DNA of 35,967 nt, taken from Halomicronema sp. CCY15110 (lineage in GTDB: Bacteria; Cyanobacteriota; Cyanobacteriia; Phormidesmidales; Phormidesmidaceae). The notes under the pieces were generated by a model, which did not search any database, had not been told where the DNA came from, and worked only from the letters and a program-made list of their open reading frames with translations. The stretch is from positions 1-35,967 of the forward strand of contig NZ_JACSWC010000136.1 of assembly GCF_016888165.1 (NCBI RefSeq), written 5' to 3'. Shown here in pieces: positions 12,233 through 17,885 of this stretch (position 1 is its first letter; each line of letters opens with the position of its first letter). The translations under genes were made by a program, and so were the position numbers.

Positions 12233-12643
12233 ATGTACGCAGTAATTTATGACGGAACCTGTAACTTGTGTGTGACGCTGGTGCGCTTGCTTGAGCAACT
12301 CGACCAGGGGCACCAGTTTCACTATGTGCCCATGCAAGATGAAGGCACGCTGAGCCAATGGCATATTACTGCCGAGGACTGCGAAGCGGGCATGATTTTA
12401 CTGAATCCTCAACAACCTGAAATCCGTTGGCAGGGGAGCGATGCCGCTGAAGAGATTGGTCGCTTGCTGCCGCTAGGAAACTTGTTTGTGCAGGCATATC
12501 GATCGCTCCCCGGTGCCAAGACCGCTGGCGATGGCTTTTATCGATTTATTCGCGATCATCGCTACACCCTCTTTGGTGGGCGCGATGACCTGTATGAGTC
12601 GGCTTACCAGATGTGTGAGAGCGATCGCTGCTCACAAGTTTGA
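12233..12643 (+). CDS. DCC family (DUF393) thiol-disulfide oxidoreductase-like protein
   Basis: The 136-residue protein belongs to DUF393. It shows the family signature YDGTCNLC at the N-terminus (Cys10 and Cys13, a thioredoxin-like CxxC) and the typical C-terminal element RFIRDHRYTLFGGRDD (about 104-119). Two further cysteines lie near the end (MCESDRC). A redox role is suggested by the family, but substrates are unknown. No operon partner is evident; the preceding 285 bp show no gene. Confidence 0.9.
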   Translation: MYAVIYDGTCNLCVTLVRLLEQLDQGHQFHYVPMQDEGTLSQWHITAEDCEAGMILLNPQQPEIRWQGSDAAEEIGRLLPLGNLFVQAYRSLPGAKTAGDGFYRFIRDHRYTLFGGRDDLYESAYQMCESDRCSQV

Positions 12644-12773: not shown

Positions 12774-13049
12774 TCAGTCTTCGTAAATGCGACATTCTGG
12801 GGCATCCGGATGAGCGACACAATATTGCTCAAAATATGTCGGTGAGTTTTGCTGGTGGCGATACCAGGCGACTTGCAACTCTTCCACCGTTTCCCAAGCG
12901 ATCGCCACTTCAATATCCGCCGTGCCGCGCATCTCAGTAAGCCGACGGGCATGTTCTAACGCCGCTTGCAAACGGGTTGCTAAAGAAGGAACTGGGATCG
13001 CTTTTGGAGTTGTAGTCGTAATTGCAGGAGCTGTTTTTGTGTAAGTCAT
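12774..13049 (-). CDS. cp12: CP12 protein, variant lacking the N-terminal cysteine pair
   Basis: The C-terminal half matches CP12, the small disordered linker that ties up GAPDH and phosphoribulokinase in the dark and so switches the Calvin cycle off. The core EHARRLTEMRGT...AWETVEELQ and the end YCVAHPDAPECRIYED are diagnostic; Cys77 and Cys86 form the GAPDH-binding disulfide loop. The N-terminal redox pair of classical CP12 is replaced by Thr38 and Val48. The first 30 residues are Thr/Pro/Ala-rich. I take the start as the ATG at 13049 (91 aa); an in-frame ATG at 13112 would add 21 residues that look unlike CP12. The gene is monocistronic, with its own terminator. Confidence 0.85.
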   Translation of the reverse strand: MTYTKTAPAITTTTPKAIPVPSLATRLQAALEHARRLTEMRGTADIEVAIAWETVEELQVAWYRHQQNSPTYFEQYCVAHPDAPECRIYED

Positions 13050-13468
13050 AGCGATTGTGGGTTGATTTCTATCGGTCAAACTTATGTACAGCCTAGCGAT
13101 AAAGTCAGCCAATGTTCGAGGGTTTTGGATATAAGTTTTTTCTATGTTTCATGAGTTTTTCTTACTCCTTGTGAGGAACTATTTCCTCGCATGAAGTTAC
13201 ATGTGCTTGTCCGAAACGGGGGTGCTCTCCAGTCTGATAGCGTTAGGCGTTCAGTCGGTATGAACTTTTTGTGCGGCGCGGTAAAGCCCGGTAGCCGCTA
13301 ACGACAAATCGAGAGGCATTAGCCCGCCAAGTTTGTTGACCTGCCGGGGGAGAGCGTGGCGATCATCTGGGGATCAAATTGGGGTGGGCAACTAAATTCA
13401 GGTCAGCGTAAGCTAGCTAATCGCAGTAAACTGATAAGCATATATACATATAAGACTTATTGATACCC
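13050..13468. other. Divergent cp12/pedR-like intergenic region with possible structured RNA
   Basis: No protein gene is evident. Several complementary segments occur. GCTCTCC (13224-13230) pairs with GGAGAGC (13349-13355). CGTTAG (13241-13246) pairs with CTAACG (13298-13303). GTTCA (13249-13253) pairs with TGAAC (13261-13265). Nested together they suggest a branched RNA of about 130 nt, either a non-coding RNA or part of the pedR-like leader. I recognise no known riboswitch or RNA family. Both gene promoters should lie here, but none is clear. Confidence 0.35.
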
Positions 13469-13756
13469 ATGGCAGGCAGTGGCACTCCCGATCCCCAACT
13501 TCAAAGCACGCTTTCAGAACGCGAACTCCAGATTGTGGAACTCGTCGCCGCAGGACTCACCAACCAAGAAATTTCTGAGGAGTTGGAAATCAGCAAGCGC
13601 ACGGTCGATAATCACATCAGCAATATTTTGACCAAAACCGCCACCGGAAATCGCGTCGCCCTGGTGCGATGGGCACTTCAGTGGGGCAAGGTCTGTATCA
13701 ATGATGTGAATTGCTGTACGCTGCCCAATGTGGATCAGCAGAAATCGGTTTCTTGA
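13469..13756 (+). CDS. Small LuxR-type HTH regulator, PedR-like
   Basis: The 95-residue protein is almost entirely a LuxR/FixJ DNA-binding domain: LSERELQIVELVAAGLTNQEISEELEISKRTVDNHISNILTKT (about 15-57). It has no receiver domain. The tail RVALVRWALQWGKVCINDVNCC carries Cys76, Cys82 and Cys83. This matches what I recall of PedR (Synechocystis Ssl0564), a constitutively made regulator inactivated in high light via thioredoxin. I use ATG at 13469; a TTG nine bases upstream is possible. The next gene starts four bases after its stop. Confidence 0.8.
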   Translation: MAGSGTPDPQLQSTLSERELQIVELVAAGLTNQEISEELEISKRTVDNHISNILTKTATGNRVALVRWALQWGKVCINDVNCCTLPNVDQQKSVS

Positions 13757-13760
13757 GCGT

Positions 13761-14102
13761 ATGGCAGATTCGATAGAGCAAAACCGCACATCAGCCAAGA
13801 TGGTTCGCCCCACTCCACCGACTGAGGTTTCGGCACCGGAACAGGTGGAGTATCGTCTGCATAGTCCGCAGTTGCCACTAGCGGTATATCGTGAGGTGGC
13901 GGCGCATTTACGGCAAATTGAGGGCGTAAATACGGGTTTGTTGCCGCAGACCTCGAAAGAATTTGACTACTTGCAGAGTCAGGTTGGTGGGGTGTGGATT
14001 CGCTATGCCGCCGATGCCGCCGACCAGTGCCAGCCCCAGGTAGAAGCGGTTTTGACCTACTACGGCGATCGCTACGGCCAGTGGGAAACGTTGAGTAAGT
14101 AG
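13761..14102 (+). CDS. Conserved hypothetical protein
   Basis: This is a 113-residue soluble protein. After a disordered 30-residue start it has YRLHSPQLPLAVYREVAAHLRQIEGVNTGLLPQ (about 32-64) and GGVWIRY, ending in a helix and YYGDRYGQWETL. I believe similar proteins are common in cyanobacteria but know no function. The ATG at 13761 is four bases past the pedR-like stop, so the two are probably one transcript; a start at 13728 would overlap and is less likely. Confidence 0.75.
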   Translation: MADSIEQNRTSAKMVRPTPPTEVSAPEQVEYRLHSPQLPLAVYREVAAHLRQIEGVNTGLLPQTSKEFDYLQSQVGGVWIRYAADAADQCQPQVEAVLTYYGDRYGQWETLSK

Positions 14103-14151
14103 CTCAGAAATCTAGCATGTGCTAATGTCTCTTGCTGCCGACCCGATGGAT

Positions 14152-14200
14152 CTAAGCAGACGATACAGGAATTGCAATTCATCTGTGCAGGTCTACTTAG
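14152..14200 (+). other. Imperfect inverted repeat upstream of hisS
   Basis: CTAAGCAGAC (14152-14161) pairs with GTCTACTTAG (14191-14200) with one mismatch, and ACAG/CTGT can extend the stem inside. A second small hairpin, AGCAAA-TAT-TTTGCT, begins at 14199 and is followed by T-rich sequence. It may be a terminator of the preceding pair of genes or part of the hisS leader. Confidence 0.35.
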
Positions 14201-14256
14201 CAAATATTTTGCTTTTGCCCTAAATAAAGCCAGTTTGTGCGAGGGATAGAATTTTA

Positions 14257-15702
14257 ATGATTGTAAATAAGCTCAGAGACTGGATTCGCGCTGCTTTATC
14301 TACATTCAAAAGGGAGAATCGTCAGGAGAGAGAAACAGACAGGCTTCCTAATGAGTCGAAGTCAAAGAAGCTTGATCGAGAGAAGAGTGAGAAGGTTTCC
14401 GCACAAGTTAAATCTGGTAAACCTCACAAAGCACTACGGGGCACCCGTGACATTTTGCCAGATGAAACGCCCCTCTGGCAGTGGGTCGAAACGACGGCTC
14501 GCGAGCTATTGCAGCGGGCAGCCTATCGCGAAATTCGTCCGCCGATGTTTGAACAAACCCAGTTATTTGAACGGGGCATTGGCGAGGCGACCGACGTCGT
14601 CGGTAAGGAAATGTACACCTTTGCTGATCGGGGGGGGCGCTCCCTGACTTTGCGCCCAGAAATTACAGCGGGCTTAGTGCGGGCAGTCAACGAGCACAAG
14701 CTCACCGCCCAGGGTAGCGTCTTGCGCCTCTGGCATGTGGGCCCAGCGTTTCGCTACGAGCGGCCGCAGGCGGGGCGACAGCGGCAATTTCATCAGCTCG
14801 ATGTGGAATTGTTGGGCAGTCGTGATCCCCGCGCGGATGTGGAAGTGATTGCGATCGCGACCACCCTGTTGCAAACCTTGGGACTCAAATCCCTCACGAT
14901 GGATCTCAACTCGGTGGGCAATGGTGACGATCGCCAGCGCTATCGAGATGCCCTCGTCGATTTTTTGACGCCGCACAAAGCGGACTTGGATGACGATTCA
15001 CAAAAGCGCTTGGCGACTAATCCCTTGCGCATTCTCGATAGTAAAGACGCGAAAACTCAGGAAATTGTCCAGACGGCTCCTAGTCTGCTGGATTTTTTGA
15101 GTCCGGACTCGCAACAGCACTTTGACCAAGTGCAGCAATATCTCACGGATCTGGGGATTGTCTACACTCTCAATCCGCGCCTGGTGCGGGGATTGGATTA
15201 CTACACCCACACCGCGTTTGAAATTCAATCCGCTGATTTAGGGGCGCAGGCAACGGTGTGCGGCGGCGGTCGCTACGACGGGCTCATCTCGCAACTGGGA
15301 GGCGCGGATACGCCAGCGATCGGTTGGGCGATCGGGCTCGAACGGCTCACGCTACTGCTCAAACAATTAGCGGTAGAACCCAGCACCGCCATGGATGTGT
15401 ATGTCGTTTCGCGGGGCGCAGCGACAGCAGGCAAAGCGCTACAGGTAGCGCAAGCCCTCCGCCAGGTAGGATTGGCTGTGGAGATGGATTTGAGCGGTTC
15501 GGCCTTTGGCAAACAATTCAAGCGGGCTGATCGCAGCGGTGCGGTGCTCTGCGTCATTTTGGGCGAAGCCGAAGCGGAACAGGGCACGGTGCAGCTCAAG
15601 TGGCTGACGTCAGGAGAGCAATCAGAAATCAGTCAAGCAGCTTTGACGCAAGCCGCCGATGAACTCGTGCAAAAAGTGCGCCAAGCCCAACAAGCGACCT
15701 AA
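14257..15702 (+). CDS. hisS: Histidyl-tRNA synthetase with N-terminal extension
   Basis: HisRS (481 residues) charges tRNA-His. The class II core is complete: ALRGTRDILPDE (about 58-69), LTLRPEITAGLVRAV, motif 2 FRYERPQAGRQRQFHQLD, histidine-binding LVRGLDYYTHTAFEI and GGGRYDGL, and motif 3 AIGWAIGLERLTLLL. The anticodon-binding domain starts near 385 (MDVYVVSRG). A usual HisRS begins just before ALRGTRDI, but here about 57 extra residues precede it: an amphipathic helix (MIVNKLRDWIRAALSTFKRE), then a Lys/Glu/Arg-rich linker. No ATG, GTG or TTG in frame lies between 14257 and the core. The extension uses AGA/AGG arginine codons, rare in the core. Confidence 0.95.
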   Translation: MIVNKLRDWIRAALSTFKRENRQERETDRLPNESKSKKLDREKSEKVSAQVKSGKPHKALRGTRDILPDETPLWQWVETTARELLQRAAYREIRPPMFEQTQLFERGIGEATDVVGKEMYTFADRGGRSLTLRPEITAGLVRAVNEHKLTAQGSVLRLWHVGPAFRYERPQAGRQRQFHQLDVELLGSRDPRADVEVIAIATTLLQTLGLKSLTMDLNSVGNGDDRQRYRDALVDFLTPHKADLDDDSQKRLATNPLRILDSKDAKTQEIVQTAPSLLDFLSPDSQQHFDQVQQYLTDLGIVYTLNPRLVRGLDYYTHTAFEIQSADLGAQATVCGGGRYDGLISQLGGADTPAIGWAIGLERLTLLLKQLAVEPSTAMDVYVVSRGAATAGKALQVAQALRQVGLAVEMDLSGSAFGKQFKRADRSGAVLCVILGEAEAEQGTVQLKWLTSGEQSEISQAALTQAADELVQKVRQAQQAT

Positions 15703-15791: not shown

Positions 15792-17885
15792 ATGGCGTAC
15801 TGGGAGTTTTTGCTACAAAAAGAGGGCGATCGCGACTGGCTCCCGTTGGAGACGGCCCACGTTGAAATTTCCGAAGGGCGATATCGCATCATTGCTCACA
15901 GCAGTTATTGCCAGGCCAACGCCAACATTTGCCTGAGTCGTTTGCTCACGGCGCAGATGCCCCCCCAGCGCAAGACGCTCAAGCGCACAGGCACGACTAA
16001 CGAAGATGGTTTGATGGTGGTGATTCCATTTACCCATCTGACCCCGGGACACTGGACAGTCACCTGTACCGCCGCTTCAGAGTCGGCTGATGCCCCGTGG
16101 GAATTTGGCGTGCAGCTAGAGGTCCTCGCGATCGAATCGGGGGTGGAATATTGGGAAACGGAACTCGATGAAGCATCCCTAGCCGAGCAACTCGCCAATC
16201 CCCCGGTGACGACGGCAGGCTCGCACCCCACTGATCAACCTACCTTGCCTACCGCTGCCACCACCTGGATGAGGAGTGACTCGACTCCCACCGATCCCTT
16301 CACGATTCAGACGCCACTCGAAGATCTTCCTCTGCGCTTGCAGTTGCAACATCAGGCTCTGGTGGCTCACACGGCTGAGCCCCTGGTCTTGCAGGGGCAG
16401 GTCATGACCTTTTCCCAAGTCGAAGGCTTGGCTGGGGAAGGAACCCTGTGGATACAGCTCCGCAATCCAGAAACGGGAGCCGTGGTTCATCAGTCTGCCC
16501 AGGCGCTTTCGATCGCGGCGTTACCCAGCCGCTTTGAGGTCACGGTACCGCTGCCCAGCGTTAGCAACACGCGGCTGCTGGTAGGAGAGCTCAGTCTGTG
16601 GACGGCCTCTGATCCGCCGCAGGTGCTGGCGATTCAGGGGTTTACCGTAACCCTCAACCTGGATGCCCTGCTAGAGGTAGTGGCTAACCAAGCTGAAAGT
16701 ACGACAACCAATCGTTTCGAAGATGTCACGGCAGCGGGCGACACGGTTGGGCCTACTCCCTCAGAGCCCAATCCACAGCGCATCATCAATCCTTTATCGC
16801 CGCGTTCGGTACCGTTTCGGCAGATTTATCTGCCGTCGAATGGACTGACGCTGCCCCCGGTCATTTATCGGCCCATTGATAAAAAAACGGTGGGCGCACC
16901 AACTTTACCGCGCTTGTCTAACCAAGCCGAGCGCGATCGCCCAACGCCCAGCGCCTCTGACCACTCAGCCGCAACGACCGCCGAGGTTGGCCCCAAGCCG
17001 CTCACCTTACCTCCCATCGGTTCGGCCTCCAAAGCCGCAGCCTCACCGACAGCGCCGATCCCTGACATGAGTGAACCGGCTGAGGCCTCACCGCAGTTGC
17101 CCACGATGGGCAATTCCTCGCAGTCATCGTTTACTTCAGACGCTACGGATGCTGGGGCAGCGGCAATTCCTCAAGCGGCTGATACTAACATTACGGCCAA
17201 GCCTTCTCAAGCCACCTTTGAGCCAGATCTGCAAGGGCGTTTTTGGCATCGGTTGAGTGCTTTGGCGGAAGAGGCCCAAAAAGCAGCAGCGGAACGAAAA
17301 GCGCAACTCGATGCGGCTGGCGTCACAGATACGACCCAGTTGGAAATCAGTTCACCCTCGGTTAATGACGCGATCGCTGCTCCCTCTGACGAACCGATCA
17401 ACTACGAAGTCGTCGTTTATGACTCCGACGATGAACTGACTACAGAAGACCTTGATGTCGTCGCAACTGACAGCGAGCCCCTCATAGAGGTGTTACAGCC
17501 CGGCGAACCCAATCGCCAAGAACTAGGCGATGTGCCCGTCCCCGAATGGATCTTTCCCCAAGGTGAACTCGTCGCTGGTGCACCTTTACCGATTACTGTC
17601 CGACTGCCTCGCTATCCCCGTCGGCTCGCGGTCAAAGTTTGGGTAACGGATATTCAAAGTCGCACTCTAGTTGATCGCCCCCGTTGGTTGATGAACTGGT
17701 CTCCCACTCCGGAAGGCGACCAAACTGCTTTTTTGCAGCTCCAAGTCCCCCTTGGCAGTCTGGAAGCCCAATTTGAAGCGATCGCGATCGATCTCGCGAC
17801 CCAGCAAGAAAGCTATAAAACCAGCCTCGTCCGTGAAATTTTGCCCGTCAATCCCAACGAGTCAGACAGTAGTCTCTCTCTTTGA
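15792..17885 (+). CDS. Large hypothetical protein with disordered central region
   Basis: The 697-residue protein has no family I can name. The N-terminal 125 residues start MAYWEFLLQKEGDRDWLPLE and look like a beta-rich domain, with GHWTVTC as one strand. A second beta-like segment spans about 185-290 (LQLQHQALVAHTAEPLVLQG). Residues about 300-480 are rich in Pro, Ser, Thr and Ala and should be disordered; 485-507 form an Ala/Glu/Lys helix. The last 110 residues (VPEWIFPQGELVAGAPLPITVRL onward) look like another beta sandwich. There is no signal peptide or membrane segment. It follows hisS by 89 bp and precedes psaI. Confidence 0.8.
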   Translation: MAYWEFLLQKEGDRDWLPLETAHVEISEGRYRIIAHSSYCQANANICLSRLLTAQMPPQRKTLKRTGTTNEDGLMVVIPFTHLTPGHWTVTCTAASESADAPWEFGVQLEVLAIESGVEYWETELDEASLAEQLANPPVTTAGSHPTDQPTLPTAATTWMRSDSTPTDPFTIQTPLEDLPLRLQLQHQALVAHTAEPLVLQGQVMTFSQVEGLAGEGTLWIQLRNPETGAVVHQSAQALSIAALPSRFEVTVPLPSVSNTRLLVGELSLWTASDPPQVLAIQGFTVTLNLDALLEVVANQAESTTTNRFEDVTAAGDTVGPTPSEPNPQRIINPLSPRSVPFRQIYLPSNGLTLPPVIYRPIDKKTVGAPTLPRLSNQAERDRPTPSASDHSAATTAEVGPKPLTLPPIGSASKAAASPTAPIPDMSEPAEASPQLPTMGNSSQSSFTSDATDAGAAAIPQAADTNITAKPSQATFEPDLQGRFWHRLSALAEEAQKAAAERKAQLDAAGVTDTTQLEISSPSVNDAIAAPSDEPINYEVVVYDSDDELTTEDLDVVATDSEPLIEVLQPGEPNRQELGDVPVPEWIFPQGELVAGAPLPITVRLPRYPRRLAVKVWVTDIQSRTLVDRPRWLMNWSPTPEGDQTAFLQLQVPLGSLEAQFEAIAIDLATQQESYKTSLVREILPVNPNESDSSLSL

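Follow-up and report, generated by a model that had tools for sequence, protein, structure and literature searches.

A species-specific N-terminal extension with a predicted amphipathic helix on the histidyl-tRNA synthetase of Halomicronema sp. CCY15110

Results

The hisS locus

The window (the whole 35,967-nucleotide stretch of DNA that was analysed) carries hisS, encoding histidyl-tRNA synthetase (HisRS), between two neighbours that recur beside hisS in related genomes. The relevant features are as follows, where G001 to G005 denote five same-genus genomes, G001 being the nearest.

13728..14102, + strand: conserved upstream neighbour, 124 residues, function unknown; directly 5' of hisS in 6/6 relatives, at 63-85% identity
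14103..14430, + strand: AT-rich block that spans the interval from the upstream gene to the hisS core and has no counterpart in relatives (low-GC segment; gap in the G001 alignment)
14257..15702, + strand: hisS, histidyl-tRNA synthetase, 481 amino acids including the extension
14257..14430, + strand: 58-residue species-specific N-terminal extension; convincing relatives are lacking, as is any start in the 12 codons next to the core
14260..14313, + strand: predicted amphipathic helix, residues 2-19 (hydrophobic moment, muH, 0.67; net charge +4)
14314..14430, + strand: Lys/Arg/Glu-rich linker, probably disordered
14431..15699, + strand: conserved HisRS core, defined by identity to the nearest same-genus genome, dN/dS and PDB alignments; first core codon at 14431
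15792..17885, + strand: downstream neighbour, 697 amino acids, no family match; follows hisS in 4/6 relatives (G001, G005, G003 and G004)

At E 0.001, neither Pfam nor NCBIfam matches either neighbour. For the relative G012, 376 bases past hisS were retrieved and the downstream neighbour was not found in them; it lies beyond reach in G002, whose contig ends inside hisS. Further upstream in the window are genes for a CP12-domain protein (12774-13112, - strand) and a DCC1-like thiol-disulfide oxidoreductase (12233-12643, + strand).

The core is that of an ordinary HisRS. The TIGR00442 (hisS) model matches from residue 59 over model positions 2-405 of 406, with 504.9 bits against a cut-off of 286.75; the match to PF13393 begins at residue 62, and the alignments to the eight best PDB relatives, all of them bacterial enzymes, begin at query residue 55-59. 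Over 423 residues the core is 96% identical to that of G001, and its dN/dS of 0.022 against the same genome indicates that the gene is in use. A genome search returned a single clear HisRS; the one other match, 29% identical over residues 59-412, is a paralogue that we infer to be HisZ-like. In a 35-row alignment, the window HisRS and its nine most similar rows read PEITAG, GPAFRYERPQ and QLDVE; in most of the remaining rows the corresponding stretches are PEGTAG (PENTAG in some), GPMFRYERPQ and Q-x-G-(V/L)-E. This change, at 14659-14667 (residues 135-137) and 14719-14808, is common to the lineage and lies beside motif 2, presumably near the histidine site; HisRS of Panacagrimonas likewise has QLDVE.

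The only in-frame ATG, GTG or TTG upstream of the core is the ATG at 14257, from which 58 residues (Met counted) are encoded before the conserved motif ALRGTRDI. A previous reading of the DNA, made from the sequence only, had claimed that no alternative start lies between 14257 and the core, and this is correct. Above the ATG, the frame holds 11 further open codons and reaches a stop 12 codons up. Near-cognate start codons in the last 24 codons 5' of the core are limited to AAG. The first internal TTG, at 14455, lies past G62 and D65, both invariant in 35/35 aligned HisRS sequences, so that a start there would yield an enzyme lacking these two residues. Because there is no other ATG, GTG or TTG and only one clear HisRS gene, this frame must supply the essential HisRS, and its only good start gives the long form. 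In the DNA, the canonical start is gone and a 58-residue N-terminus takes its place; we infer that it is translated.

Comparison of hisS N-termini

A local tblastn search was run on 161 sequences (the window plus loci, often with one genome represented twice), of which 160 had a readable N-terminus. These collapsed to 136 distinct contexts, including 30 that are non-cyanobacterial. A start codon (ATG, GTG or TTG) lies within 12 codons of the core in all 135 other contexts and is absent from the window alone; in 108 of the 135, an ATG is found 3-8 codons before the core. Each of the five same-genus genomes has an ATG five codons before the alanine of the core, which is the usual hisS start among the relatives, so the net gain in the window HisRS is 53 residues. 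The sequence-only reading had described a 57-residue extension: the additional N-terminus is real, and the figure depends on how residues are counted. The tail is absent from all five same-genus genomes, the closest core included. As to the comparison of starts that the same reading had proposed, relatives do begin just before ALRGTRDI, and internal initiation in the window would have no good codon to use.

In a search of the class, 325 of 388 genomes matched HisRS at E 1e-100 or better, and N-termini were read for part of these (the loci returned plus 40 fetched stretches). Among the matches listed, 28, own genome included, were judged by eye to have a stop-to-stop frame of at least 465 residues, the room that a tail of this size requires; the N-terminus was read for 27 of these 28, leaving out G381, which lies at a contig edge. 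Among the 63 class genomes without a match at that level, it was read for G002 alone. Among the publications listed, the titles and abstract openings mention no HisRS of a bacterium that carries an N-terminal addition of this kind.

Origin of the extension

A maximum-likelihood change-point fit within 13001-15699 placed a low-GC segment at 14087-14431 (GC 0.417 versus 0.545 outside; log-likelihood ratio 9.8), which makes the extension and the adjoining intergenic DNA one block. The nucleotide alignment with G001 stops at 14103 and restarts at 14429. From the stop codon of the upstream gene to the first core codon there are 328 bases in the window versus 117-241 in the six relatives (G001, 148; G005, 138; G002, 117; G003, 117; G004, 241; G012, 119). 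The extension is AT-richer than the core, as the sequence-only reading had noted, with a GC content of 0.42 versus 0.58, and its use of AGA/AGG, also pointed out there, holds for 4/7 arginine codons versus 0/32 in the core and 34/415 in the other mechanical open reading frames (ORFs) of at least 220 amino acids in the window. In the hisS frame, a codon score gave -0.22 for the extension, -0.32 for the intergenic stretch and +0.19 to +0.51 for three equal pieces of the core, with a resolution that is not sharp, given that the conserved upstream gene scores -0.01 over its first 174 bases. The codon statistics of the extension are non-coding-like.

Searches for a donor were negative. The best foreign match of the extension protein was at E 0.09 among 59 relatives (own genome included) and at E 0.066 among the 388 class genomes; 63 genomes of the order gave no match at E 0.05, and searches of phages, plasmids and viral contigs found none. 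On NCBIfam, the single match (MPN313, E 0.16) fell far below its cut-off. A weak match of residues 12-51 to PHROGs phrog_14868 (function unknown; E 0.0055) was treated as compositional. At the DNA level, the extension is present as one full copy in its own genome, has merely six matches of 19-36 bases (E 0.03-0.07) in 63 family genomes, and matches no phage or plasmid. A mobile element was rejected, direct repeats and a second genomic copy both being absent; the inverted repeats consist of two short pairs (15 nucleotides at 80% and 10 at 90%). An RNA leader was likewise rejected: no Rfam family reached its gathering score, and the folding z for 14104-14300 was 0.13. A simple sigma-70 pattern found no promoter-like site.

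The tail is most likely a species-specific product of formerly non-coding or captured AT-rich DNA. The synonymous divergence of hisS from G001, the nearest genome, is 0.94, a distance at which neutral DNA is hard to align anyway, insertion is indistinguishable from drift with length gain, and "recent" is not demonstrable. The earlier description of the segment as recently acquired therefore survives as to its novelty (absent from the same-genus genomes and from every other context) and fails as to a foreign coding origin, given the non-coding-like codons and the lack of a donor.

Sequence features of the extension

Residues 2-19 have a muH of 0.67, a net charge of +4 and a mean hydrophobicity of 0.37. 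This moment was attained by 0.15% of shuffles of the same residues (p = 0.0015), by 0 of 6,528 18-mers from 15 other long ORFs of the window (mechanical, overlapping ones included), by 0 of 406 core 18-mers and by 0.015% of random ORFs of matched base composition. A score combining moment and charge was less special, being attained by 0.8% of window 18-mers and 9% of random ORFs. The whole extension has 17 Lys and Arg versus 9 Asp and Glu, and the resulting net charge of +8 was reached by 29% of random ORFs with equal base composition, so basicity alone is unremarkable. All of these amphipathicity and charge tests were post hoc. Of the label "amphipathic, basic" given by the sequence-only reading, the former word suits the first 20 or so residues well, and the latter describes an ordinary property.

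AlphaFold2, run on 35 sequences, drew a helix at residues 2-26, with a pLDDT of about 60 over residues 1-20 and under 50 over residues 20-57, where a further helix was drawn at 34-52 at that low confidence. The core was mostly confident (whole-model mean 80.4, pTM 0.73), residues 106-118 also falling under 50. The alignment contains no homologue of the tail, and the model of the tail is therefore in effect a single-sequence prediction. Residues 1-19 are predicted to form a positively charged amphipathic helix, carried on a predicted flexible linker of about 38 residues and leaving the core intact.

The extension contains no transmembrane-like stretch, as judged by hydrophobicity, its most hydrophobic part being the amphipathic residues 2-19. 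No Pfam family, PF14159 (CAAD) included, matches residues 1-58 at E up to 10; CAAD identity was rejected, in agreement with the previous reading. Elsewhere in the genome, CAAD is present in ValRS (locus L196 on contig C439, scanned as a 714-residue fragment) between the anticodon-binding domain and the C-terminal arm, and a second CAAD match lies in a 140-residue open frame on contig C70. From the domain on ValRS it follows only that the organism has a synthetase with CAAD.

Discussion

We propose, with a probability of roughly 0.4, that the canonical hisS start codon disappeared in this lineage, that the in-frame ATG at 14257 within the AT-rich intergenic block took over initiation, and that HisRS, which would now be made with a new 58-residue N-terminus, acquired a peripheral tether to a membrane or a partner. 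The helix would bind a partner protein or the surface of a membrane, holding the synthetase there and presumably leaving catalysis untouched. In the membrane version, the action would be like that of CAAD on ValRS, exerted through an interfacial helix instead of two transmembrane helices. The high moment of residues 2-19 is consistent with this proposal, as are the arrangement drawn by AlphaFold2 (N-terminal helix, low-confidence linker, largely ordered core), the strong purifying selection on the core, the colinearity of the flanks with relatives, and the CAAD-bearing ValRS of the same genome together with the CAAD precedent in Anabaena. Against it stand the single sequence that carries the extension, its non-coding-like codon statistics, the post hoc nature of the tests and the frequency with which random ORFs attain the combined score, and a modest helix confidence that comes in effect from one sequence. 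It is further weakened by the report (PMC4893482) that HisRS of Anabaena is soluble and forms no stable complexes.

A tether is our preferred, putative function for the tail, and a tolerated accident comes close to it in likelihood: drift or a small rearrangement would have removed or shifted the start, an in-frame ATG further upstream would be used instead, and the tail would do no more than permit initiation. The resemblance of the extension to the adjoining intergenic stretch in codon statistics, the failure of the donor searches to find a homologue and the commonness of a net charge of +8 all fit this explanation, and AGA/AGG use of this kind would be expected of AT-rich non-coding DNA. 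Moreover, any lineage that survives the loss of its start needs an open in-frame leader. What an accident does not readily provide is an amphipathic moment so rarely attained by random ORFs of the same composition. Quite unlikely, in our view, is that the basic tail serves as a non-specific tRNA- or RNA-binding appendage that stays disordered until RNA is met, in the manner of the N-terminal domains of eukaryotic LysRS. Its Lys and Arg content and the low pLDDT of residues 20-57, with a helix drawn at low confidence within them, would suit such a role, and the appended domain of human LysRS is described in PMC6213541 as disordered and as becoming helical upon RNA binding. However, the strongest signal in the tail is the hydrophobic face of residues 2-19, which RNA binding would presumably not need, the net charge is unexceptional, and no Pfam match supports the likeness.

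The least probable account is that the extended protein does not exist, either through an assembly or sequencing artefact or through non-canonical initiation beside the core. The data are one draft assembly of 443 contigs, with one assembly per species, and every other context has its start near the core. However, completeness is 99.93% and contamination 0.17%, the flanks are colinear with those of relatives, the block is single-copy, and the G001 leader was not found elsewhere in the genome. A single-base error masking an old start was rejected, several differences separating the window from the start region of the relatives, and initiation beside the core would have AAG as its only near-cognate codon.

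If the tether were real, localisation of synthetases would have arisen more than once in cyanobacteria. The stronger statement, that non-coding DNA gave an essential bacterial synthetase an amphipathic helix targeting it to a membrane or partner, and that one species-level lineage thus displays a second, CAAD-independent route of synthetase localisation in cyanobacteria near its origin, is rather improbable. At this locus the neighbours are conserved, the ancestral start is gone and the new segment is defined, all within a single lineage, which makes it possible to ask directly whether new protein termini are functional from the outset or begin as tolerated accidents.

Appended segments are familiar in eukaryotic synthetases. 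Like the Lys-rich RNA-interaction domains at the N-terminus of eukaryotic LysRS, going by their description, the tail is N-terminal, basic and probably disordered, and is appended to a class II synthetase; unlike them, it is dominated in its first 19 residues by a hydrophobic face. Among bacteria, the documented membrane case is CAAD on cyanobacterial synthetases, which, according to PMC4893482, anchors ValRS to thylakoids in Anabaena and can be removed with little effect on ValRS catalysis. The tail resembles CAAD, found on cyanobacterial ValRS, GluRS, IleRS and LeuRS, in being an appended non-catalytic segment for which surface-holding is proposed here. It differs in being N-terminal, in having 58 residues versus 85 model positions with no PF14159 match, and in its host enzyme, which is HisRS, whereas CAAD in this genome occurs on ValRS and in a separate open frame. 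With ordinary cyanobacterial HisRS the enzyme shares its entire core and differs in its start, which lies 58 codons before the core alanine instead of the usual five.
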